This document shows, in pieces, positions 2,923-22,743 of a stretch of DNA of 48,626 bases. Where the stretch lies: positions 1 through 48,626 of IMG/VR virus record IMGVR_UViG_3300046747_000366, one strand, 5' to 3'. A program made the translations under genes and the position numbers. A model generated the notes under the pieces. It saw only the letters and a list, made by a program, of their open reading frames with translations, did no database searches and was not told the DNA's origin. Positions within the stretch are counted from its first letter, which is position 1, and each line of letters opens with the position of its first letter. The stretch comes from a virus.

Positions 2923-3503
2923 GGGATACCGTCATAGCGCCTAGCTGCTTGGCAAACACGCCGTTGGAACTGTAGAGCAGCCAGCGACTGGAGAATGTCA
3001 GCGAGCGCCCTGTGCGCCCTCTCAGGCTTCTGCATTGGCCCGTACCACAGTTTGTGTGTCTCAATCATACCGGACGTGTCGAGTACTCGGTAGTGCAAGT
3101 GCTTTAGCGCCTTTGGCGTGTAACGACGCATGAAGCGCACGTCGAACTGCCCGATGCCGTTTCCGAACAGCATAATCCTGCCGGGCTGCGGGCTGATGCT
3201 CTGGAAGTACTTGAGCAACTCGATGTCAAGATCAGCCGCGGCAAATGTGACTCCGGCGCGGCGCTCTTTATCGATCAAGTCGAACAGCCCACTGACCCTG
3301 TGCATCTCAGTCACTGCCGGATGTGGTGTTGTGTTGGAGCGCTCCGTCAGGAACCACTCCGCGCGCGACTGCTCCTCAAGTGTTTGCGCGTCGACGTGGA
3401 TAACGGCGCACTCAAGGATCGTATCCGTCTGCTCGTATAGGCCCTCAGTCTCGAAGTCGAGTCCTACGAGCAATGGGGGCAACTCTTGTTGATCTTGGTC
3501 CAT
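2910..3503 (-). CDS. DEDDh 3'-5' exonuclease, oligoribonuclease/DnaQ-like
   Basis: This 197-residue protein has a complete DEDDh set. Exo I is LDFETEG (D16, E18), Exo II is GNGIGQFD with D121, and Exo III is HRALADI (H164, D169). The HRALxDI form is characteristic of Orn-type oligoribonucleases, although the overall length equals that of a small DnaQ-like exonuclease too. It may finish degradation of short RNA or DNA fragments to mononucleotides. A strong GGAGG lies 4 nt before the ATG at 3503. The 8-nt gap to the Mre11-like gene and the overlap with the nucleotidase place it within the recombination operon. Confidence 0.85.
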   Translation of the reverse strand: MDQDQQELPPLLVGLDFETEGLYEQTDTILECAVIHVDAQTLEEQSRAEWFLTERSNTTPHPAVTEMHRVSGLFDLIDKERRAGVTFAAADLDIELLKYFQSISPQPGRIMLFGNGIGQFDVRFMRRYTPKALKHLHYRVLDTSGMIETHKLWYGPMQKPERAHRALADILQSLAALQFQRRVCQAARRYDGIPCGS

Positions 3504-7127: not shown

Positions 7128-9713
7128 TCAGGCAGCAACTTTGTAATCTTCCATCGATCCCCAAGCTGGCCCCCTTTTGGCGTCAGTCTTGAGGGGAACA
7201 CCTTTGCTGTCATGACTGCGCATGATCGCGTCCACAGCGCTACACGTGTCTCGCGTGTACGCCTTGTGCACGTTGAGGATAACTGAGTCGTGCACGACTG
7301 AGACAAGCTCAGCGGGAATGCAGTTGTCATCAATCCACTGCACGATCGGCGACAGAGACGCGGTCATAAACTCTGCTGCAGTCCCTTGCACAGGGCCGTT
7401 CCCTGCAGCGTTTTGCGCGTGTGCTCTACGGCCGTCGTCTCGGTCTGCGATGTCCCACAGAGGCCGCTCACGAGCGTAGTCCCCCGCCCACCACGTGCGC
7501 GACACTCCCGTACGAGCAGCCTCACGCTTGAGTCCCTCCATGTACGCGTCTAGCACGTTATAGCGGCCCCAGATTAGTTTGTTGATCTTGTGAACTACTG
7601 ACTCGTGCACACCGAACTCTGCAGCTAGGCCGCGGTCAGTCTTGCCGTACAGCTTTCCGAAGATCGTGGTTTTGATCTGCGAGCGATACGGGTCTCGCTC
7701 GTCCTTTGTCATGTCATCCCATTTTGCACGAGGGATCTTCCAGACAACCTCACAACAGACTGTCGCACCGTTCATGTGGATGTCGATGCCATTGCGGAAG
7801 TCTTCGATCATTGCCTTGTCACCGCTGAGCATGGCGGCGATGCGTAACTCTAGCTGCGAGAAGTCAAGCTCTAACAGCTCCCAGTCTTGGTGGGACGCGA
7901 CAAAGCAGTTGCGCGCCATCGTGCCGAGCACTGACCCCTTTGCACGGGGAATATTCTGAAGGTTCGGCTCTTGCGAGCTGAGGCGGCCAGTCTCGGCTCC
8001 GTCGAGCAGGAACGAGGCGTGCACTCTGCCGTCATCACAGAGCCTGCGCATGATGCCCATGGCGTAGGTGCTGTTGAACTTTGCTAGCTTGCGATTCTCT
8101 AGCAGTAAGCTCACGTACGGGTGCTTTGTCTTGAGGTGCTCTAACGCTGCCTCGTCTGTGCTGCGAGCGCCACTAGGCGTCGTGAACTTGCATGGCAGCC
8201 CCAGCTCATCGTAAAGGAACTTGCTGAGCTGTATGGGACTGGCTGGGTTGATGTCTGTGTACTGGCGCATCTTGGCGGACAGATCGTCTAAGCCTTTTAG
8301 GCAATACGCACTGAGGTTGTTGATCGCCTGACGGTCTACGGGAATTCCCCAGTGCTCAATGCGGCGCACTGCCTTGCTGGCGTCCCGCACAACGAGGTTC
8401 CAAACACGGCTGATCGTTGGGTGCGCAAGCAGCCGTGGCGCGTCTTGCAGGAAGACTGCCTCAGTGCTCCACACATCTCGCGCGTTGTAACGGTAGCGAG
8501 TCTTAGGATCGAGATACCCAAACATGTAAGCCTCAGGCTCAATGCCTAGGCGTAAGTCCTTGAGCACTCTCTCAGGCACGTCAAGCTTGGGCGGTGCAGG
8601 GGGTGGGCGCTTCTTGCCCGTCTTCGTCAACTCTCCAAGAGGGAACGCTAGTCTGTTTAGCTCTTTCTTGATCGCAGCGTTTTTAGCGGCTGCTTCTTTC
8701 TTGTGCCCACCCATGCCGACTGTCTCAGCCAAGATCTCCAACTTGGCGAGCGCCATGGGCTCTAGCAGCTTGCGCCCTAACCGAGTGTCGTAGTGCACTT
8801 CAGGGGCTACGCCGAACGTCAGCACGCATGAGCGATCGTCATACTTGCCATTCTGCGTAACAGCCGATGCTCTGACCAAGTACTTCTTGAGCTGTGCGCG
8901 GCACTCGCCATTGCGCAACGCCTCTTCAGTCCACGTGTAGGACTTATCAGCGCCAACACCCTTGAACGTAGCTGCAGTGATCTTGAAGTCAGCGTTGTGC
9001 ATGCGTCCGTACGTCTCGACGTCATACGTTACATGCGGGCACTTGCTGAGACGCTTGATCGCCTTTTTAGAGTCCTCTGGGGTCTCTACTAGACATGTCA
9101 TCGAGTCAGTGAACCAAGGCTCTGGGTTGAGCTTTAGGGCCCACGCAATGTCTTCTTCTAGGGCAGCTCGGTGGAACCGGTTGTCGAACAGGCCCGGTCG
9201 CAAGCCTGGCAGCACGAACACAGGTACTGGCCCAAACTCTCCGTTAGCCCAACCGTAGGCACGTCGCACGTGCGCCGAGCTTATACGCCGGCCAAGCACA
9301 GAGAACGCAGCCTCGCTGCCAAAGCAGATGATCCTCTTGGGAGCGGCCCTGTGGTAGCTACGAGCTGTGTACGGGCGGCAAGCGTTGATGTGCTGGTCAG
9401 TTACCTTCTTGATCCCCGTCGCGCATTTGACTGCGTACTCATACGACACAGGGCCGTTGTACTGTGCTGCCAAGATCTGCCGCACACGCTGGCCAAGCTG
9501 CGAGTAGAACGGCTTGCCCGAGATGTCCTCGAGCTTTGAGGGACGCTCTGCCACGACAAACAACCCGCCCGCGCGTATCTCTGGCGCTAGGCACACGTTA
9601 CGCACGCCACTATGCAGCTTGCAGCGCGTACAGTCAGCGTCTCGCTTTTGGGGCTCAGTCTCGTCTACTACCGCAGGCGGCAATCCCTGCGGGTATAGCT
9701 TTAGCAGCTTCAT
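7128..9713 (-). CDS. DNA polymerase I family (family A) with N-terminal UDG-like Fe-S domain
   Basis: The 861-residue protein has three parts. Residues about 25-195 match family-4 uracil-DNA glycosylase, with cluster cysteines C28, C31, C97 and C112. The catalytic motifs have drifted: GEAPG is AERPS at 55-59, the Asn before VKC is Tyr93, and HPS is LPG at 168-170. Residues 225-430 are a 3'-5' exonuclease with D231/E233, N288/D292 and Y409/D413, so probably active. The polymerase has motif A DFSQLELR (D617), motif B R677...K681...FGKLYG, and motif C VHDS (D809, S810), where Ser replaces the usual Glu. No 5'-nuclease domain is present. This is the replicative polymerase. Its Shine-Dalgarno AGAGGG lies inside a long inverted repeat. 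Confidence 0.95.
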   Translation of the reverse strand: MKLLKLYPQGLPPAVVDETEPQKRDADCTRCKLHSGVRNVCLAPEIRAGGLFVVAERPSKLEDISGKPFYSQLGQRVRQILAAQYNGPVSYEYAVKCATGIKKVTDQHINACRPYTARSYHRAAPKRIICFGSEAAFSVLGRRISSAHVRRAYGWANGEFGPVPVFVLPGLRPGLFDNRFHRAALEEDIAWALKLNPEPWFTDSMTCLVETPEDSKKAIKRLSKCPHVTYDVETYGRMHNADFKITAATFKGVGADKSYTWTEEALRNGECRAQLKKYLVRASAVTQNGKYDDRSCVLTFGVAPEVHYDTRLGRKLLEPMALAKLEILAETVGMGGHKKEAAAKNAAIKKELNRLAFPLGELTKTGKKRPPPAPPKLDVPERVLKDLRLGIEPEAYMFGYLDPKTRYRYNARDVWSTEAVFLQDAPRLLAHPTISRVWNLVVRDASKAVRRIEHWGIPVDRQAINNLSAYCLKGLDDLSAKMRQYTDINPASPIQLSKFLYDELGLPCKFTTPSGARSTDEAALEHLKTKHPYVSLLLENRKLAKFNSTYAMGIMRRLCDDGRVHASFLLDGAETGRLSSQEPNLQNIPRAKGSVLGTMARNCFVASHQDWELLELDFSQLELRIAAMLSGDKAMIEDFRNGIDIHMNGATVCCEVVWKIPRAKWDDMTKDERDPYRSQIKTTIFGKLYGKTDRGLAAEFGVHESVVHKINKLIWGRYNVLDAYMEGLKREAARTGVSRTWWAGDYARERPLWDIADRDDGRRAHAQNAAGNGPVQGTAAEFMTASLSPIVQWIDDNCIPAELVSVVHDSVILNVHKAYTRDTCSAVDAIMRSHDSKGVPLKTDAKRGPAWGSMEDYKVAA

Positions 9714-9718
9714 CGTTA

Positions 9719-9803
9719 CCCTCTAAGAGACGCTAGATCTGGCTGAGGGTTCGGAGCCTCACGTGCCATGAACACGCTGCTAGATCTAGCGCCTCTTAGA
9801 AGG
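9719..9803 (-). promoter_or_regulatory. 22-bp stem-loop burying the polA ribosome-binding site
   Basis: The arms are 9719-9740 and 9782-9803 with a 41-nt loop. In the DNA the arms differ at two positions. In the minus-strand mRNA both differences become G-U pairs, so the RNA stem is unbroken over 22 bp. The arm next to polA contains the AGAGGG Shine-Dalgarno, 6 nt from the ATG at 9713. The structure would therefore mask translation of the polymerase unless opened. The loop contains a smaller GGCT/AGCC dyad. It could also serve as an RNA-processing site or a DNA-level origin element. Confidence 0.6.
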
Positions 9804-9819
9804 GCCCTACGCGTAGGGC
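9804..9819. repeat. Perfect 16-bp palindrome between the acidic protein gene and polA
   Basis: GCCCTACGCGTAGGGC is a perfect palindrome 8 nt after the stop of the 9827-10387 gene and directly next to the outer arm of the polA stem-loop. As RNA it forms a compact GC-rich hairpin. No T-run follows, so it is not a classical intrinsic terminator. Confidence 0.6.
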
Positions 9820-9826
9820 GCCTTGC

Positions 9827-10387
9827 TCACTTCATGCTTTTGAGGATGATCTTCTCTGCGTCTGCCACGCGTGCTTCGAGGTCGATCGAAGCCAGCGGCT
9901 TCAACTTGTCCTTGAGAGCGAGAGATGCCTTGAGAAGGGCCTTGCCCGAGAACCCGCGCTTGATGAGGATGGTGAGGATCTCTCGGAGAGACTTGGCCGT
10001 CTTCAGCTCGCTGTCGACTTTGAGCTTGGTAGGCTCGGCGGCGCCCTTCTTCTTGGGCTTCTCATCCTCGTCGTCTTCGTCATCCTCCTCCTCTTCCTCG
10101 TCGTCATCTTCGTCTTCGTCGCTGTCCTCGTCAGCGTCTTCTTCCTCTTCGTCATCCTCCTCTTCCTCGTCGTCATCTTCGTCTTCGTCGACTGCCTTTT
10201 TGCCCTTGGCCGGCTTGGCAGTCTTCTCTGCCTTCGAAGGCTTGCCCTTGGCAGCCTTATCCCCTGGGATCTTTGCTGCGAACGCCAAAGCGGTCTCGAC
10301 CGTAGGTGACGCGAACGTGAGAGTGAGTACTACGCCTTCTGAGGCTTCCCCGCCTGTGATCGAGAAGCCTGTTTTTTCTGTCGCCAT
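9827..10387 (-). CDS. Unknown protein with long central acidic block
   Basis: I do not recognise this protein of about 186 residues. It has a compact N-terminal segment of about 45 residues, a Lys/Ala-rich linker, about 50 almost purely Asp/Glu residues, a short KKK patch, and a helical basic C-terminus rich in leucine and lysine. The central block is encoded by an internal direct repeat. I chose the ATG at 10387 because GGAG is 9 nt away; the ATG two codons earlier sits only 3 nt from it. It lies immediately upstream of polA in the same transcript, separated by the palindrome and stem-loop. The acidic block could mimic nucleic acid or dock replication proteins; that is inference. Confidence 0.7.
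   Translation of the reverse strand: MATEKTGFSITGGEASEGVVLTLTFASPTVETALAFAAKIPGDKAAKGKPSKAEKTAKPAKGKKAVDEDEDDDEEEEDDEEEEDADEDSDEDEDDDEEEEEDDEDDEDEKPKKKGAAEPTKLKVDSELKTAKSLREILTILIKRGFSGKALLKASLALKDKLKPLASIDLEARVADAEKIILKSMK
10078..10190. repeat. Imperfect 41-44 bp direct repeat encoding Asp/Glu runs
   Basis: Copies at 10078-10121 and 10150-10190 are identical except that the first has one extra CTC triplet. Both lie inside the acidic block of the unknown protein and are in frame, so unequal exchange would change tail length by whole residues. Trinucleotide slippage of GAG/GAC codons is the likely origin. Confidence 0.75.
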
Positions 10388-10451
10388 ATACATTTGCTCC
10401 GTTTTTCAAAAACTGCTTTGCGGTTGTTGTCTTACGCAGTAGCTGCCCGCT

Positions 10452-10805
10452 TTACAGGCGCTTACCGGGGATCGCCTCGCGTCGACGCGTCGCGATAACG
10501 AGTAGGACGAGATACCCCATGAGATCTTCAACTGTCTGCTTGAGTGACTCATCTGGCAGTGCGTGCCCTCGCATGAGCCTAGACAACTTATCGTCCAGGC
10601 GCACCTTGAGCTGTTCGACCGTGTCAGCTTTCGAGAACACGCGCATAGGTTTTAGCGCTGAATCCCCGTACGCCGCGTTCTTTGTGAGGAGAAGCTGTTT
10701 CAAGCCCTCACACACCTCTACGATTTCTCGCTGAGACTGCGTCAAAGGAGGCATAGTCGCGTCCTCTCGACCGTCTTTCACGACCTGCTTTTTCCTAGCT
10801 GCCAT
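10452..10805 (-). CDS. Nucleotide-modification-associated domain 1-like protein (DUF1599/Nmad1)
   Basis: The 117-residue protein has the order KNAAYGDS (residues about 42-49), RVFSKAD (about 55-61), VRLDDKLSRL (about 68-77) and a final EDLMGYLVLL (about 93-102). I recognise this as the Nmad1 (DUF1599) pattern, a small all-alpha domain related to MazG-type NTP pyrophosphatases. It is often found near phage DNA-modification genes. The length equals the usual domain length. GGAGG lies 9 nt before the ATG. Its substrate is unknown; a modified or unwanted nucleotide is plausible given the nearby MazG and nucleotidase genes. Confidence 0.75.
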   Translation of the reverse strand: MAARKKQVVKDGREDATMPPLTQSQREIVEVCEGLKQLLLTKNAAYGDSALKPMRVFSKADTVEQLKVRLDDKLSRLMRGHALPDESLKQTVEDLMGYLVLLVIATRRREAIPGKRL

Positions 10806-10818
10806 TAGATCCTACCTC

Positions 10819-11190
10819 CTACTCTGCAGAAGGCAGAGCCTGCAGACGCTTATACAGGCAGTCCCGCAGCACGTCCACTGCCAGTGGGGACGCTGGGACT
10901 GCCTTGCCGCGCTTTCTAGCGCCATCAAACGCCACACGCGGCTCATCAGTGCTAATGCTGAAAACAGAAGCCTTGAGTGCCTTGCCAAACACGCGCTTGA
11001 GCTCTTTTTCGAGCTTCCTGTCGGTAGCCCATTTGCCTTTCTCTTTAGGCGCAAGGTGCGCTTTGAGCGAAGCTTTCTCAGCCTTCTTGATGCGCTTTGA
11101 AACCTCCCCCGCGTCTCCTGGCGCAAGACCCTTGGCAGCCGCCTTCTCGAGTGATTTGATCGCCTTCTTTGCGTCTTTCTTCTTACCCAT
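10819..11190 (-). CDS. Unknown small basic protein
   Basis: This protein of about 123 residues is strongly basic over its first 75 residues (many Lys/Ala helices) and has a short mixed C-terminal region ending in YKRLQALPSAE. I find no known motif. The ATG at 11190 is chosen because AAGGAGG precedes it by 5 nt; an upstream in-frame start at 11211 would lie on the wrong side of that site. It sits between the primase and the Nmad1-like gene in the replication transcript. A nucleic-acid-binding role is possible from charge alone. Confidence 0.65.
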   Translation of the reverse strand: MGKKKDAKKAIKSLEKAAAKGLAPGDAGEVSKRIKKAEKASLKAHLAPKEKGKWATDRKLEKELKRVFGKALKASVFSISTDEPRVAFDGARKRGKAVPASPLAVDVLRDCLYKRLQALPSAE

Positions 11191-11207
11191 GTTGCCTCCT
11201 TTTGGCT

Positions 11208-12101
11208 TCACAGTCTGATCGGAGTCCTCGCCCCGATAGAAACGCGTGCGGCTATTCTGACGAGCTTTGGTGGCACTGTAGCGGGATCTTCTCCAGCCGG
11301 TAGCCTAATGCTGCCTGATGGCACACCCTCGAAGCGCAGTAGGCAAGCCAGCATGTGCCCCTCCTCCCACGCGTCTCCATCAAGGCACACGCACACAGGG
11401 CGCTTTGCCCTCTTGAGCGCTGCGATCTGCTTGTGGCTCGGCTTCCCGAGACACGCCACAACGTGGGGCCAGTAGGGAAACGCATCAAACGAGCCCTCTA
11501 CAGTGAGCACAGGCCTGTCAGTCTTTACGTTGATCGCGTTGTGGTTGAGAAAGTATGTGCCTTTCGCCATATCTGCCGGGTACAAGTACGGCATCGACGC
11601 AACACCCTTTGCGTTGGGTTTCGGCTTACTCCAAAGCCGTGCGATCCACCCTAGCCACACAGACTCGTTGCGGGGGTCTAGGAACGGCACAATGATACGC
11701 CCGGACCAGAAGCCCTCATCGCAAGCGTGTATGCCTATCCTAGCCACGATTCGATCATCCACACCGCGAGAAGCAAGGTAGCGAAGAGCAGGGCGGAAAG
11801 TATGAGATCTGTTTCCGGCAAGCTGCACAAACTCTCGAGGTGGCTGGAACTCTTTCGGGGCGTCCTCGTCTTCTTCAAACTCATCAAACGACTCCTCACC
11901 TACACTCCTCAGCCTGCCGCGCAGCTCACACCGGTAGCACTTCCACCTGCCAGTCTCCAGGCGGATCACTAGGGACAGCTTCTTATCCCTGTGCCCATCG
12001 TCTTCGCAGAACGGGCAAGACAGGCGAGCCGTCTTGCTAGACGTCTTTGCCTCAGAGAACATCGCTTCGACACGATCGTTATTCTCCTTCCAGTCGCTCA
12101 C
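11208..12101 (-). CDS. DNA primase, zinc-binding plus TOPRIM domains
   Basis: The N-terminus has a zinc ribbon CPFC...CYRC (C32, C35, C58, C61, counted from an upstream GTG at 12110). The centre has a TOPRIM domain with EGSFD (E205, D209) and DGD (D244, D246). This is the DnaG-like core that makes RNA primers. The protein is about 297 residues, much shorter than bacterial DnaG and lacking a clear helicase-interaction domain. It directly follows the replicative helicase gene. I favour the GTG at 12101, which gives a 4-nt GTGA overlap with the helicase stop and AGGA 10 nt upstream; the GTG at 12110 is also possible. Confidence 0.88.
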   Translation of the reverse strand: MSDWKENNDRVEAMFSEAKTSSKTARLSCPFCEDDGHRDKKLSLVIRLETGRWKCYRCELRGRLRSVGEESFDEFEEDEDAPKEFQPPREFVQLAGNRSHTFRPALRYLASRGVDDRIVARIGIHACDEGFWSGRIIVPFLDPRNESVWLGWIARLWSKPKPNAKGVASMPYLYPADMAKGTYFLNHNAINVKTDRPVLTVEGSFDAFPYWPHVVACLGKPSHKQIAALKRAKRPVCVCLDGDAWEEGHMLACLLRFEGVPSGSIRLPAGEDPATVPPKLVRIAARVSIGARTPIRL

Positions 12102-13369
12102 AGCACACACATCCTACCGCGTGCCCAGTCGTGCGGTATTGGGCCAACGATATCGCCAGACACACCGTACCGGTTTTTGTCTATACCGTAGATCAGTGCG
12201 TCTTCCTCTTTAGTGATGGGTATGACTAGATCTGCGACGTCGATTTTACGGCTAGAGTCTCGCACGTCGTGCATTGTCAAGCGCTTGCGTTGATCTCTAC
12301 CCTTCATCAAGGCCTGAGACGCTGTAAACGACCACTTACCCTCCTCAGCCGAATACGTGCGCAGCTCCTCCGCCTGCGCCCCCTGGATGACATATTCGTT
12401 GTCTTTTGAGTTCTTCGGCCCACGCAGCTTGTCCACGTAGTCTACGATCACGATGTCTGCCGGGAAGCCCTCGAGGTCTTCGCACTGCTTTACCCACCGA
12501 ATGATGTCTTGTGCAGTGGTTCCCTTGGGTGAGAAGTACTGGCAGATAAACGTGCCAAGAAGTGGGTGCATTTTTGCGAGCTTGCGCCGCACGGCTTTGA
12601 ACTTTCCGGCAGCGATCGTGTCGATAAACTCACCGGTTAGGTTTGCCTTTACGCGAGATGCGATCTCAGTCTCTGGTAGCTCGAGAGTTGCGTAGCAAAC
12701 GAACATGCCGTGCGCCCAGTTGCACGCACCGATGTGTGACAACATCTGGCTCTTTCCGCCGCCTTGCTCAGCAATGAACAATGTTAGCGTGCCTCTCGGA
12801 GGTCCCCCTCTGAGTACTGCGTCGATCTCCGCAATGCCTAGTGGCATCCTGTGCACACGCCGCAAACGATCTATCTCAGCAAACGACTCGCTACCACCTA
12901 TGCGCAGGCCTACTGACAAGTCTGACTCGCCTAGCTTGTCTGTGAACTCGATCTTATCTCGTATGGAAGAAAAATCGCCGCGGCGTGCGTACTCGTCCAT
13001 CGAGTCTTTGACGATCTCCGACTGCAGCCGCCGCTTGATGACTTGTGACAACTCGTTCGAGACATCACGCCAGTCGGCTGGCTCAGTCTCACACAGCAAA
13101 TCGAGCACGCTGTTGATCTGCGCTTTCTTGACCTTCCCGGATTCGTTGAGCGACCTCAAGCGTTGTAGCGTGATGCTGACATCGCTGGGGCCTCTCCCCG
13201 TCTCCTTGTGCAGCGTGCGCGCTACTTTCACGAGCAGCTTTACGGTTTCGTCAGCTACACTGTCAGGATCTATAGCGTGCCCGATAAGCCCCACAAACTT
13301 CGTTGACGTCGCACACAGTAGCCCCACTTGCCTCTCGAACATTGGGTCGAGATCATAGGAATCTGACAC
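12098..13369 (-). CDS. Replicative DNA helicase, DnaB family
   Basis: The 423-residue protein has an N-terminal helical domain and a RecA-like motor. Walker A is EQGGGKS at 201-207, Walker B is DIVIVD ending at D310, and the SQALMKGRD-type segment near 355-365 fits the DnaB H4/sensor region. It should unwind the fork as a hexamer and act with the primase, whose gene overlaps its stop codon. The start is GTG at 13369, 3 nt after the stop of the preceding gene, with GGGG as a weak Shine-Dalgarno, so translational coupling is likely. No separate helicase-loader gene was recognised, unless the neighbouring unknown gene fills that role. Confidence 0.9.
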   Translation of the reverse strand: MSDSYDLDPMFERQVGLLCATSTKFVGLIGHAIDPDSVADETVKLLVKVARTLHKETGRGPSDVSITLQRLRSLNESGKVKKAQINSVLDLLCETEPADWRDVSNELSQVIKRRLQSEIVKDSMDEYARRGDFSSIRDKIEFTDKLGESDLSVGLRIGGSESFAEIDRLRRVHRMPLGIAEIDAVLRGGPPRGTLTLFIAEQGGGKSQMLSHIGACNWAHGMFVCYATLELPETEIASRVKANLTGEFIDTIAAGKFKAVRRKLAKMHPLLGTFICQYFSPKGTTAQDIIRWVKQCEDLEGFPADIVIVDYVDKLRGPKNSKDNEYVIQGAQAEELRTYSAEEGKWSFTASQALMKGRDQRKRLTMHDVRDSSRKIDVADLVIPITKEEDALIYGIDKNRYGVSGDIVGPIPHDWARGRMCVL

Positions 13370-13372
13370 TGG

Positions 13373-14095
13373 CTAACCCCACAGATAGTCACCGTCGATT
13401 ATTGCTTGATCGATTACTGCTTGCCGCTCATCGGCTTCAACCTGAGCAGCTCTCGCAAGGCGCGCAAACTCTCGCTCTGGCAAACGCTCTGCAACGATCT
13501 TCTTCACTAGCGCTGCTGTAAGCCCTGTTCGCGCTGCTAAGCACAGAGCCGCCCGCATGCTCTCCCACAAAGCGATCAGCTCTTTGTGGGCGCTCGAAAA
13601 CACCAAACGAGCGCCAGACTCTACTCCGCCGCTGTGCCAGCCGAGGTACTTATTTTTCTCAGCAAACCGCTTTTTCCCGTACACCCAACCTGTAGCGGGT
13701 CGCGTATCTCGGAACCGCTTCGGGCCGTATACCCGCCACTCACGCACGCTCCACGCGCACCACACATGCGGCTGCGTCTGCAGCTCGTACAGCGCCTTAG
13801 CAGCCCCCGTCAAGGCTGTGCGGGCCCGAGGCGGCATCTTGGCCACGTCTGATGCCCCCAGGGGCCGCAAGCGCGCTCGTAGCGAGCCACGGGGGTAGTA
13901 GTGGCGACAGCAGGACTCGTAGGCCTGAGCGCACAGCAGCACGTCCTGCTCGAGGTCGCCCAGGAGACGTGGGGGAGCAGGGATGCGCGCAGGCCGGATG
14001 AGCCGCGCGCTAGGGTAGTGGGGTATGAGCGCGTGATAACGCAAGAGGGTCTCGGTCCACGTGTCGCGACCGGACCCCTGAAGGATCTTTCCCAT
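13373..14095 (-). CDS. Unknown basic protein upstream of the helicase gene
   Basis: I do not recognise this 240-residue protein. It is rich in Arg and Trp/Tyr, with a central aromatic-basic stretch (WSVREWRVYGPKRF, then GWVYGKKRF, near residues 114-150) and a helical Arg/Glu C-terminus. The aromatic-basic pattern could bind nucleic acid. The gene is translationally adjacent to the DnaB-like helicase, so a helicase-loading role is conceivable but unproved. The ATG at 14095 has GAGG 4 nt upstream, at the edge of a 29-bp stem-loop like the one that precedes polA. Confidence 0.65.
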   Translation of the reverse strand: MGKILQGSGRDTWTETLLRYHALIPHYPSARLIRPARIPAPPRLLGDLEQDVLLCAQAYESCCRHYYPRGSLRARLRPLGASDVAKMPPRARTALTGAAKALYELQTQPHVWCAWSVREWRVYGPKRFRDTRPATGWVYGKKRFAEKNKYLGWHSGGVESGARLVFSSAHKELIALWESMRAALCLAARTGLTAALVKKIVAERLPEREFARLARAAQVEADERQAVIDQAIIDGDYLWG

Positions 14096-14101
14096 TGCGC
14101 C

Positions 14102-14202
14102 TCAAGCTCTGTAAGTACTCGATCGACCGGTGAGCAACGACACACGCAGCGAGCAGCACACTTGTTGGAGGCGCCAGCCGACCGAGTACTTACAGAGTTT
14201 GA
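14102..14202 (-). promoter_or_regulatory. 29-bp stem-loop at the start of the 13373-14095 gene
   Basis: The arms are 14102-14130 and 14174-14202 with a 43-nt loop; the core 15 bp (14107-14121 with 14183-14197) is perfect. Of four differences between the arms, three become G-U pairs in the minus-strand RNA and one is a C-A mismatch. The outer arm touches the GAGG Shine-Dalgarno (14100-14103) of the downstream gene. The layout is the same as in front of polA. Confidence 0.6.
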
Positions 14203-14207
14203 AACGC

Positions 14208-14228
14208 ATAGGGGCTCCTTACCCCTAT
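14208..14228 (-). terminator. GC-rich hairpin after the 60-residue gene; weak terminator candidate
   Basis: ATAGGGG at 14208-14214 pairs with CCCCTAT at 14222-14228, giving a 7-bp stem with a 7-nt loop, 4 nt after a TAA stop. Only a short T-run (GCGTTTC) follows in the minus direction, so termination would be partial at best. It could instead protect or process the mRNA. Confidence 0.4.
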
Positions 14229-14232
14229 TGGC

Positions 14233-14415
14233 TTACGCATGCTGTTGTGCATTTACAGCTAGCGCCTGCTTACTCGCGGCAATGAGGCGATTGAGGGAGC
14301 GGGTAGCGTAGTCAACCAAGTCTGTCTGCGCTTCGCGCGTCGCAGGAGCTGCTAGCTTATTTTGTAGCTCTCGCTCGATGCGCGACAGCTCCTCTAGTGT
14401 GATCATGTTTCCCAT
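14233..14415 (-). CDS. Unknown 60-residue helical protein
   Basis: This small protein has two helical segments (residues about 5-22 and 28-57) rich in Glu, Leu and Ala and no cysteines. I do not recognise it. AGGAGG lies 8 nt before the ATG at 14415, a much better site than most neighbours. The first 59 nt overlap the 3' end of the UvsW-like helicase gene in another frame. It is followed by a hairpin and the long stem-loop. Confidence 0.6.
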   Translation of the reverse strand: MGNMITLEELSRIERELQNKLAAPATREAQTDLVDYATRSLNRLIAASKQALAVNAQQHA

Positions 14416-15832
14416 TTGCTGTGCCTCCTCTCTGAGAGCTACGAATAAAGACTGGGTAGTTTTCCGTCGCGTACGCCGCTAACCGCTGCCTCGTGTGCTT
14501 CTCCATCCACTTGCACGAGGGGTGTATGCCGTTGCAGCCACACCCAAGATCTTGGAAATCGTAGACCTCAAACTCGTCCTTCACCACTGACCCGTCCGCG
14601 GCGTGTCTCCGTGTACCGCGGCCCGTATTCTGTAATACCATGATCGCTGACTTACCGCCACTAGCTATTCCGACCGATCGAAGTGCTGGAATATCCACGC
14701 CTTCTTGAAAGATGACGTTGCACACGAGCACATCAGTCTCCCCCTGCACGAGGCGCTCGATTGCGGCAGCACGCATCGGCGTAGCCTTTTCGCCCCAAGA
14801 AAACTCTACGCTCTGCCCGCGCGCACGAATCAGCTTCTCTAGCGATTTCCCGTGCTCAATGGCTTTCACGAAGAGAAGCGTCGGTTTCTTTGCCTGCAGC
14901 ACGCGCTCAACTACCTCGTAGTTTCGCTGATCGCTCCTGATGATGCAGTCTTTGTATACCCCGTCCCAGGTACGAGCTGCAGACGGGCGGTGCCGCACTG
15001 TGGTCATTGTGATGTGCGGCTTTGCGATCCACCCTATCTTCCACAAGTCCTCTGCCGACACTCTGTGAATGATAGGTCCGACAGCTGCAATAGCGTAGAT
15101 CGACTTCTGGTCTCCGCGAGCAAGCGGCGTCCCCGAGAAGCCGTAACGGAAGTACGCATTAGGGCATGCCTGTATGCACGCCCAGAAAGTGTCAGCCGGC
15201 GAAACATGCACTTCGTCGATTGACAACCCCTGCACTGAGCTGAGAAACGCGATAGCAACACGATCTCTACCTCTAAGAGCTGCGTGCACACTCTGGAACA
15301 TTGCGACAGTGACGCGGCGAGAGATGTCCCGCACGCCGTCTCCCCATATGCCGATCTGCTCTCCAGTACGCAGCATGAAGCGTGCTGCTACTTGATTGAG
15401 CAAGTCTTTCTTGTGCACGAGGACCAGCCACTTACACGGGTACAGCTCTGTCAGAGCAATAATGATCTCTGTCTTTCCTGATCCCGTAGCGTGGTGGAAG
15501 ATGCCTCGGGTAAGACGCCTAGCGACGTCTAGGCCGTCGCCCTGGTGAGCCCGCAGCCAGTCAGTCAGCGCATGCGGGTCTGGCTTGCAGGGCACTCTAC
15601 GGCGATCTACTAAGTCGACACGCTGCGCCGCCTTCCTCGCGCGCTTGGCGACACTCGGGGCAAGGCCGGCGGGAAACGTTCCAGTGAGATCGCTAAACAG
15701 GTGCGTGCGACCCCCGTGCATGCGGGCTTTGAAGCTCTTGTCCTTGAATGACAAGATACTGTCTAGCCACTTGCGCTCTGAGGGGGTCGCACGCACTAAG
15801 CGAGCGTGCACGTTTCCTAGCTCTATCAGCAC
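14357..15832 (-). CDS. Superfamily 2 DNA helicase, UvsW/RadD-like
   Basis: The 491-residue protein has SF2 motifs in order: I ATGSGKTE (K120), Ia-type LVLVHKKDLL near 136-145, II DEVH at 206-209, III GFSGTP at 231-236, and VI QNTGRGTRR at 401-409. A small cysteine cluster (GCGCN...C) lies near residue 440. Phage helicases of this type remodel R-loops, D-loops and reversed forks, as T4 UvsW does, and switch origin use late in infection. An N-terminal region of about 100 residues before the motor resembles the DNA-binding part of UvsW only in position. The start is GTG at 15832 with GAGAG 7 nt upstream. Confidence 0.87.
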   Translation of the reverse strand: MLIELGNVHARLVRATPSERKWLDSILSFKDKSFKARMHGGRTHLFSDLTGTFPAGLAPSVAKRARKAAQRVDLVDRRRVPCKPDPHALTDWLRAHQGDGLDVARRLTRGIFHHATGSGKTEIIIALTELYPCKWLVLVHKKDLLNQVAARFMLRTGEQIGIWGDGVRDISRRVTVAMFQSVHAALRGRDRVAIAFLSSVQGLSIDEVHVSPADTFWACIQACPNAYFRYGFSGTPLARGDQKSIYAIAAVGPIIHRVSAEDLWKIGWIAKPHITMTTVRHRPSAARTWDGVYKDCIIRSDQRNYEVVERVLQAKKPTLLFVKAIEHGKSLEKLIRARGQSVEFSWGEKATPMRAAAIERLVQGETDVLVCNVIFQEGVDIPALRSVGIASGGKSAIMVLQNTGRGTRRHAADGSVVKDEFEVYDFQDLGCGCNGIHPSCKWMEKHTRQRLAAYATENYPVFIRSSQRGGTANGKHDHTRGAVAHRARATK

Positions 15833-15873
15833 CTACGTACTCTCTTCCTGGTCACGCAGTGCGCAGAGCTTCC

Positions 15874-16257
15874 CTACTCTGCAGCGTTCTCGTCGTCTTC
15901 GTCGCTGAAATCAGCTGAGAAGTTATCTTCGTGCTCCTCTTCGGGAGCCTCGTCAACCTCGATCTCGGGGGCAACCTTCTTGGCCTTGCTCTTCTTTTTC
16001 TTGGCAGTCTTCTCAGCAGAGTCCGCCGAGGCTTTCTTTTTCTTCTTGGCCGGTTTCTCAGTAGCCTCGGCAGCGGCTTTTTTCTTTTTCTTGGCAGGCT
16101 TCTCAGCGCTCTTCTTGACCTTGCCCTTCTTCGCTGCCTTCTCCTTCTTCGGCTTGCTCTTCTTGGGCGGCTTCTGAAGGGTCTTTCGAGTTGTACTTGT
16201 CGAGAGCACCGAGGCGGTTCTTGCCGCGCTCGATAACGTACTCTGCTGCCTCAACAA
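15874..16257 (-). CDS. Lysine-rich histone H1-like C-terminal part (second frame of a frameshifted gene)
   Basis: The frame encodes about 65 residues of KKKKK/PAKK/AEK repeats like eukaryotic or bacterial H1-type tails, then an acidic end rich in E and D. Its nominal start (TTG 16257) has no ribosome-binding site, and the first 23 residues are Ser/Thr/Ala sequence without family character, as expected for an out-of-frame reading. The gene at 16103-16351, one base off, supplies a sensible N-terminus. The simplest view is one protein of about 155 residues joined by a +1 shift near 16180-16210. The likely role is DNA compaction or chromatin-like binding. Confidence 0.6.
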   Translation of the reverse strand: MLRQQSTLSSAARTASVLSTSTTRKTLQKPPKKSKPKKEKAAKKGKVKKSAEKPAKKKKKAAAEATEKPAKKKKKASADSAEKTAKKKKSKAKKVAPEIEVDEAPEEEHEDNFSADFSDEDDENAAE

Positions 16258-17354: not shown

Positions 17355-17993
17355 TTACTCTTGCTCCTTCCAAAGCCTGTACAGCTCGGGGTCGTTTTCC
17401 AAGATTTCTTTGATTCTCGCGAAGTACCTATACACCGACCTCACAGGTACTGCGTGCTCTTTCGATACATCGGCAGGGCGATAGTCCTGCGATAGCATAG
17501 CGAGAGCAAACTCCAGCCCTTCCTCGCTGCCAAGCAGCGCCAGCACTCGATCTCGAATAGCCTGAGCGCGCTGCTTTTGCGTTAGCAGCTCGTACGAATC
17601 TAGCGACGCAGCTAGCATCTTCTCAAGTAATGCGGGCTCTCTCCGGCTGAGCGACTGAGGCACGCTACGGCTATGAACGTAGCCGCCCCATGTGTCAGGG
17701 GCATCATGAAGGCTCGCGCGCTGTGTGCCCAGTAGGTTATCCTCGTGCCCCCGTGACGTCGAGACTGGCGAGGACATGCGCTTGGTGGCCATGCTCGCAG
17801 AGATGACGGCAGTGCGCCACGCATAGCGTATGAACGGTCCCCGGTTGTGGTCGTAGGTTTTTAGAGCGGTGAGCTGTGCGCAGTATGCTTCTTGCTTTAG
17901 ATCCTCCGCCTCTACATACCAGCACTTCGCCTTGTAGCGACGCGCTACGATGCTGGAGTTCTTGGCGATCAGCCTGTGATGCTGCTCTTGCAT
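17355..17993 (-). CDS. Sigma-70 family RNA polymerase sigma factor
   Basis: The 212-residue protein shows sigma region 2 at residues about 8-75: ARRYKAKCWYVEAEDLKQEAY, then ALKTYDHNRGPFIRYAWRTAV. A region 4 HTH lies near 165-198 (YRPADVSKEHAVPVRSVYRYFARIKEIL in two pieces). It should direct host RNA polymerase to phage promoters, most likely the late block. I chose the ATG at 17993, which directly follows the upstream TGA in a TGAGATG junction; longer readings run into the preceding gene. No region 1 or strong region 3 is visible. It is the second gene of the leftward transcript, so it would be made early. Confidence 0.8.
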   Translation of the reverse strand: MQEQHHRLIAKNSSIVARRYKAKCWYVEAEDLKQEAYCAQLTALKTYDHNRGPFIRYAWRTAVISASMATKRMSSPVSTSRGHEDNLLGTQRASLHDAPDTWGGYVHSRSVPQSLSRREPALLEKMLAASLDSYELLTQKQRAQAIRDRVLALLGSEEGLEFALAMLSQDYRPADVSKEHAVPVRSVYRYFARIKEILENDPELYRLWKEQE

Positions 17994-17994
17994 C

Positions 17995-18879
17995 TCACAC
18001 GTCCATCTCTGCCATGATGGCGCGTGCAATCTTCCCGTCCATGCTCTCGGCCTGCTCGCGCAGGACATCGAGATTCGCGCCGAGAAGTGCCTCGTACTGA
18101 CGTACCTTCTTGGTCAGCTCTTCGACAATCGTCTTTCGTGTAGCAAGTGCTCGCGCGCCGAGCTTATCCTCGTTACTGCGGTCGAGTGCCTCTTGGATAC
18201 GCGTGAGCTCTGTCTCTACGTCGCTCTGCAGCGCAGCGAGAATCGCGCCGACTGCCTTATCCGTGCGCATCGCTGGCACCTCATACACAGTCACGCGCTT
18301 GTTCACGCTCTCTAATACTGCAGTGAGCGTGCGCCACGCTGCCGCGTACACGTTCGGCACGAAGTAGATCCCCCCTGTTTGCCTCAGAGCGATGCCTGCG
18401 TAGTTGTATGCCTGCGCGATTAGCCACTGCGAGACATCGACCGGATCAAGCTCATCGCGAGACTTCTGCAACGCCTTCCAGACCTCTTTGCGCTTCTCGG
18501 CGCGCATGACACCAACGGGGTCTGCCTCCTCTGGCATCCAGAGCAGCAACGTGTCGTCAGTGTCGAGCCAGCATTTTGCGAGCGTGTTGATTTTTGGGTC
18601 ACGGCCCTCGGCGTGCTCGCCCTTCACTAGCTGCACTACAGCGTACCCGCCGCCTTTGAGCGGCGAGACACTGTGCTCAGGCCACACAGCCTCTAAGGCG
18701 CGCTTGAGCGCCGCCCTGTCGCTTGGCTCGGCTGGCAGCTCGTCGTGGCTGAGCCCTGCCGCCCCCCACGCCTCTGAGAGCGCCTCTAAAGGCGTAGTGC
18801 CCCCCAGCGTCCACCACGTAATAAGGCCAGCTGCCTGGCTTGCCTCGACCGCAATAATGCCTTCGTGAGTCGTGCTCAT
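17995..18879 (-). CDS. Unknown phage protein with GGIYFVP motif and coiled-coil C-terminus
   Basis: The 294-residue protein is the first gene of the leftward block. The N-terminal half has a compact alpha/beta look (GGGYAVVQLV near 76-85, TLLLWMPEEAD near 110-120). GGIYFVPN near residue 178 is a motif I associate with a widespread but uncharacterised family of large-phage proteins. The last 110 residues are a predicted coiled coil. The ATG at 18879 has AGGAG at 10-nt spacing; an upstream in-frame start at 19020 would put 47 residues of low-quality sequence in the control region. The function is unknown; first position suggests an early role. Confidence 0.72.
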   Translation of the reverse strand: MSTTHEGIIAVEASQAAGLITWWTLGGTTPLEALSEAWGAAGLSHDELPAEPSDRAALKRALEAVWPEHSVSPLKGGGYAVVQLVKGEHAEGRDPKINTLAKCWLDTDDTLLLWMPEEADPVGVMRAEKRKEVWKALQKSRDELDPVDVSQWLIAQAYNYAGIALRQTGGIYFVPNVYAAAWRTLTAVLESVNKRVTVYEVPAMRTDKAVGAILAALQSDVETELTRIQEALDRSNEDKLGARALATRKTIVEELTKKVRQYEALLGANLDVLREQAESMDGKIARAIMAEMDV

Positions 18880-22610: not shown

Positions 22611-22628
22611 GCCGCCGAAGGCGGCAAC

Positions 22629-22672
22629 GAGCGAAGCGAGTAGTCTAGAGCTCTAACTTGCTCGCTTCGCTC
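22629..22672. terminator. 12-bp inverted repeat GAGCGAAGCGAG, possible terminator
   Basis: GAGCGAAGCGAG at 22629-22640 and CTCGCTTCGCTC at 22661-22672 are perfect inverted copies with a 20-nt loop that itself holds a palindrome (TAGAGCTCTA). A pyrimidine-rich stretch (CTTCTTTTCTCTC) follows about 6 nt later. This fits the end of the first small-gene operon, though a clean T-run is missing. Confidence 0.45.
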
Positions 22673-22743
22673 GCGTGCTTCTTTTCTCTCTCAACTCGCT
22701 TACGCTCGTCTAAGAGGAAGCACACAGACCATGACCCCCAAAA

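Follow-up and report, generated by a model that had tools for sequence, protein, structure and literature searches.

The sequence is an IMG/VR virus record of 48,626 bases, and the whole record is the window referred to below. The replication cluster is on the minus strand and reads, in the order of transcription, as a sigma-like protein, a helicase, a 60-aa open reading frame (ORF), a 240-aa protein (g240), DnaB, primase, a 130-aa ORF, a small protein of the phrog_1485 family, an acidic protein, PolA, a 164-aa protein (g6607), SSB, a RecA-like protein, an SbcD-like protein, a small exonuclease, a nucleotidase-like protein, and an SbcC-like protein. The two gaps studied are those upstream of g240 and upstream of PolA. 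The polA gene (7128-9713, minus strand) is of the DNA polymerase I family (phrog_17, E = 1e-88) and lies downstream of one long stem; the gene of the acidic protein (9827-10393, minus strand) lies upstream of this element, and its stop precedes it. The g240 gene (13373-14095, minus strand) is located directly before the gene for the DnaB-like replicative helicase (12098-13369, minus strand), which has no stem ahead of its start. A sigma-70-region-2-like protein is encoded at 17355-18068. The g240 product is homologous to the C-terminal part of proteins of about 500-550 aa, encoded next to dnaB, in four related loci (L097, L103, L129, and L131). Its AlphaFold2 model has a pLDDT of 85.6, and a fold search with the product gave no match with E below 0.3. 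Judged by gene position only, it is probably a replication initiator or helicase loader.

Long stems ahead of polA and g240

The stem before polA was confirmed where the sequence-only reading had placed it, at 9719-9803 on the minus strand, with 22 bp that include two G-U pairs and no A-C (5' arm 9803-9782, 41-nt loop 9781-9741, and 3' arm 9740-9719). The stem before g240 is also present, but its extent had been understated as 29 bp at 14102-14202; it covers 14096-14208 on the minus strand and has 35 positions, comprising 29 Watson-Crick pairs, 5 G-U pairs, and 1 A-C (5' arm 14208-14174, 43-nt loop 14173-14131, and 3' arm 14130-14096). No other inverted repeat within 150 nt in the window is as long as these two. 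RNA folding gave -62.1 kcal/mol (z = -5.2) for the polA element and -75.6 kcal/mol (z = -7.7) for the g240 element, and 0 of 200 shuffles equaled either value. The two stems have no sequence or loop in common, and a MITE or other repeat family was therefore rejected. A search of both window elements against Rfam gave no match. Departures from Watson-Crick pairing inside the two stems are G-U rather than A-C by 7 to 1, a count that by itself is weak.

Both Shine-Dalgarno (SD) motifs lie within the 3' arms, AGAGGG at 9719-9724 for polA and TTGAGG at 14100-14105 for g240 (both minus strand). The burial of the polA motif had been described correctly; that of g240, thought to be touched at the edge of its stem, is wholly inside the 35-position stem. 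The start codons, ATG at 9713-9711 and at 14095-14093, are unpaired (probability 1.00 each), and positions -13 to -5 have a mean unpaired probability of 0.12 in both elements, which supports the burial of the ribosome-binding site (RBS).

Each gap also holds a short hairpin, the GC-rich GCCCTACGCGTAGGGC at 9804-9819 (minus strand; 7 nt past the upstream stop) and ATAGGGG...CCCCTAT at 14208-14228 (minus strand; 4 nt past the upstream TAA). Short hairpin and long stem had been taken as a matching module. Both hairpins exist, but alone they are not beyond chance, since about 5 of 100 (polA) and 14 of 100 (g240) composition-matched shuffles were equally good. No terminator-like signal (a short GC stem with a U tract) was found at either window element.

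Recurrence by gene in related viruses

No close relatives were found among annotated phage records (INPHARED), nor in viral contigs searched with the stem sequence itself, nor in single-protein searches with PolA, DnaB, and g240, whereas alignment-based searches succeeded. An alignment of PolA and distant homologues recovered IMG/VR relatives at 59, 57, 54, 54, 40, and 35% identity, and a second PolA alignment added about 75 that were 28-46% identical. The relatives are uncultured viruses with a common gene order, and a few loci are near copies (L089/L090). The 80 top loci from a search of genome contigs resembled PolA in its C-terminal part alone, at about 30-34%; they are apparently bacterial PolA and give no host clue.

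Long stems of 19-42 bp, with loops of 6-82 nt, precede the starts of polA, recA, and g240 in the relatives, so the earlier link to replication genes was borne out beyond the window. In the polA slot, long stems are found in L008, L088, L089, L090, and L091, shorter ones in L010/L011, and a tRNA-like fold in place of the stem in L009. Stems occupy the recA slot in L008, L010, L088, L090, and L091. The g240 slot has long stems in the window, L009, L103, L129, and L131 and shorter ones in L010 and L089; in L102 some 40 nt separate the end of the stem from the likely start, and in L097 a stem of 42 positions lies 31 nt before a possible start. Across 82 loci (1.29 Mb; ORFs with an SD-like motif, score 33 or more), RBS-overlapping stems were counted at 17 of 1306 SD-bearing ORFs and at 0 of 1306 dinucleotide shuffles, for which the best score was 29.1. 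With the same scoring and with start candidates taken from homology, stems were assigned to g240 in 11/33 cases, polA in 8/79, recA in 5/58, and SbcD in 1/60, and none to DnaB (0/50), primase (0/54), SSB (0/70), the helicase (0/31), g6607 (0/53), or SbcC (0/44). Chance or terminators could account for some of the g240 matches, namely L132/L133 (U-rich tail), L155, and L141 (distant from the start). On the PolA tree, the polA element maps to one clade of 11 rows (support 100) and is present in 9 of them. Elements from L008, L089, L090, L092, and L102 had no Rfam match even at E <= 2.

The general pattern is a buried SD and a free start codon. The SD is buried as well in the recA elements of L008 and L090/L091, the g240 element of L009, and the polA elements of L089-L091; it is mostly free in the polA elements of L008, L009, and L010 and not buried in that of L088, so burial is not universal.

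Two junctions carry folds that score as tRNA, at 9910-9984 of L009 (47.1 bits against an Rfam cutoff of 29), ending 16 nt before the polA ATG, and at 5101-5178 of L012 (46.4 bits, same cutoff), ahead of a 110-aa gene after SSB. Acceptor, D, and T arms are present in both, and so is an encoded CCA; neither has a valid anticodon, the anticodon loop being abnormal rather than the 7 nt of a regular cloverleaf. The L009 polA case is the only one above the cutoff whose slot is occupied by a long stem in near relatives. A T-arm with a 7-bp acceptor lies 3 nt before recA in L092/L093, and a T-arm-like hairpin is present at L102 recA and inside the L008 recA stem; the cases in the recA slot have the T-arm signature only, with no Rfam match. 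The T-arm plus acceptor signature occurred 7 times in sense and 0 times in antisense orientation in the 1.29 Mb.

Covariation, which the sequence-only reading had proposed as a check, was scored on 7 elements of L008, L010, L088, L089, L090, and L091 that align in register on the SD GGAGG; the window stems are outside this subset because their sequences cannot be aligned with it. In the alignment, 95% of cells are paired, and both sides show changes in 10 of the 17 pairs. Covariation scored 0.546 compared to 0.230 in shuffles, with 0 of 500 shuffles reaching the observed value. Sliding the register by 1-3 columns reduced covariation to about 0. The covariation is strong but not blind, since the stems themselves supplied the register and some of the rows come from paralogues in a single genome. 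The second G of GGAGG is opposite a G in all seven aligned elements. Non-Watson-Crick departures, read on the sense strand with strand-symmetric scoring, were G-U in 41 and A-C in 20 cases (p = 0.005); a first count of 42 to 9 was set aside because its registers came from a G-U-tolerant score. The G-U excess is what a role of the RNA itself would predict. Together with the covariation, it upholds the proposal that RNA pairing, and not DNA symmetry, is kept, and regulation at the RNA level is well supported.

Possible roles of the stems

The directly supported observations are the structure, the position, the RBS burial, the RNA-level selection, the gene specificity, and the tRNA-like fold at L009 polA. 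The stems are tentatively read as RBS-blocking junctions in a polycistronic mRNA that are opened by endonuclease cutting; we infer that cutting occurs, which enzymes do it, and that the result is activation. On this view, the stems act in cis at the junctions between genes of a long replication mRNA; they would bury the SD with the start codon just outside, and read-through transcripts would be poorly translated, in relatives also for recA. Stems this stable should keep the 30S subunit off the SD, for which a stem of -11 kcal/mol discussed previously was used as comparison (PMC11228461). Synthesis of the replication proteins is thus probably kept low until the mRNA has been cleaved or has refolded. 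Host RNase III may cut the duplex, and such a cut would detach the upstream message and expose the downstream SD; RNase III is known to open the RBSs of lambda cIII and adhE (PMC5371410). A long, nearly perfect duplex for which any sequence will do suits a double-strand-specific endonuclease such as host RNase III, and the lengths of 22 and 35 positions in the window and 19-42 in relatives provide about two turns or more. The lack of common sequence between the window stems makes a reader of the duplex, or no reader, likelier than a sequence-specific binder. No phage-encoded RNase III was found in 11 records, and the host enzyme is therefore assumed. The tRNA-like junctions of a few relatives might be cut by tRNA-maturation enzymes, so that the module would act as mRNA punctuation; a tRNA-like fold where near relatives hold a stem suggests that the slot needs an endonuclease target. 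Conservation of the outer stem sequence is limited to L088-L091, L008, and L010 recA; in L088-L091 it hints at a specific binder and counts against cutting. The mostly free SDs of the L008, L009, and L010 polA elements and the single above-cutoff tRNA-like fold in a stem slot weigh against it too.

Unlikely, although it comes next, is a temporal gate as in T4 e, soc, 49, and I-TevI, in which early read-through RNA would be silent and a later promoter in the 5' arm or loop would give a short, translated mRNA that lacks the 5' arm. The T4 hairpins likewise bury the SD in a helix of the phage mRNA, and for e and I-TevI the unblocked message comes from a late promoter that lies within or beside the 5' strand (PMC3014915). 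The logic of RBS burial is alike, and the phage has the sigma-70-region-2-like protein, but the T4 hairpins of e and I-TevI gate late or homing genes and here replication genes are gated. The two window elements have no common sequence, no sigma-70-like promoter was found in 9000-16000 (the motif of the phage's own sigma may differ), loops of merely 6-8 nt in L008 polA and L090 recA leave no room for one, and the tRNA-like fold of the L009 polA slot would not serve such a gate.

A translational operator is slightly less probable still. The polymerase, RecA, or the g240 product would bind the stem and repress its own synthesis, as T4 gp43 and gp32 do (PMC3014915); as in T4, replication genes would be under the control of RNA structure near the RBS, and the polA and recA elements of L090 and L091 have the same outer stem and the G-G mismatch at the SD. 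A protein of the T4 kind reads a short conserved hairpin or pseudoknot, whereas the stems here are variable and far longer than the 16-18-nt T4 operator hairpins. The window stems are without common sequence or loop, loops differ between relatives, and no conserved loop or binding sequence was found among relatives of the regulated gene.

A conformational switch without cutting is about as improbable as an operator. The short hairpin would exclude the outer arm of the long stem, and a ribosome at the upstream stop would set the state of the SD. The 15-bp hairpin of L088 polA does use a strand of the long stem, with 0 of 100 shuffles as good, and for the hairpins of L008 polA and L088 recA 3-4 of 100 were as good. 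In most elements, including those of the window, the hairpin is at chance level or barely overlaps the stem arm; the shuffles support a competing short hairpin in L088 and L008 and do not support it as a general component. A function at the DNA level (origin, cruciform, recombination site, or mobile-element end) is very improbable, for although the stems are also DNA inverted repeats and the phage encodes SbcCD-like proteins, the G-U bias in sense RNA, the coding-strand placement adjoining start codons, the gene specificity, the sense-only T-arm signature, and the copies without common sequence all speak against it.

In the tentatively favored reading of blocking junctions opened by cutting, the elements resemble the RNase III-activated leaders of lambda cIII and E. 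coli adhE, where the RBS is occluded in a stem that must be opened for translation. Unlike those leaders, the elements belong to several replication genes of one operon in a clade of phages, their sequences are interchangeable, one polA slot has a tRNA-like form, and cleavage is here proposed. In mitochondria, tRNAs punctuate polycistronic RNA as cut sites. The tRNA folds between ORFs are similar to this, but the cases here are few, the anticodon loops are abnormal, and most junctions are long stems. The absence of any described element of this form, as first suggested, holds for the family, which has no Rfam match, but not for the class, since RBS-occluding leaders are known (PMC5371410, PMC3014915). 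The mechanism class is thus known, and the gene set and the tRNA-like swap appear new. Of the first reading, RNA selection, RBS burial, and the replication link were supported; the recA slot, the tRNA-like forms, and the broader family of g240 had escaped it.

It is conceivable, though rather doubtful, that one operon punctuation system uses RNase III stems and tRNA mimics without an anticodon interchangeably as cut sites at the same junctions and gates the synthesis of initiator, polymerase, and recombinase together. The stems in general would amount to a clade-wide post-transcriptional control of the phage replication module, exerted through variable structure and not conserved sequence, and as such it would escape sequence searches. 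With its tRNA-like fold, one polA slot would offer a natural experiment on the requirements of the slot.

Insertions and N-terminal domain of replication proteins

In-frame insertions were found in the DNA polymerase I family protein (PolA) of L010 (10001-13429) and the RecA of L008 (4499-6409), two loci of uncultured-virus relatives sharing the replication module, and both were matched by the intein splicing domain PF14890 with scores under Pfam's cutoff. DnaB (L092, L100) and RecA (L013, L014) show breaks of ~0.7-1 kb resembling these insertions, which suggests that inteins are numerous in this replication module. Residues 51-187 of L010 PolA were assigned by Pfam to a uracil-DNA-glycosylase-superfamily domain (PF03167), and Cys residues are conserved at the N-terminus of the window PolA (7128-9713, minus strand). 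PolA of this group, likely including that of the window, carries this domain at its N-terminus.

Other hairpins and a tRNA-like sequence

A further inverted repeat in the window (22627-22674; arms of about 14-16 bp) sits between plus-strand ORFs, with no start codon directly after it, and is perhaps a terminator. A HIRAN-domain gene is also preceded by a stem in two relatives (L088, 3516-3552; L092, 8247-8334). Directly behind polA in L143, the T-arm/acceptor signature detected a tRNA-like sequence (3019-3117) that looks like tRNA-Tyr.

Sigma-like protein

The phage also encodes, in the window, a sigma-70 region 2-like protein (17355-18068; PF04542), and may use it to redirect the RNA polymerase of the host.
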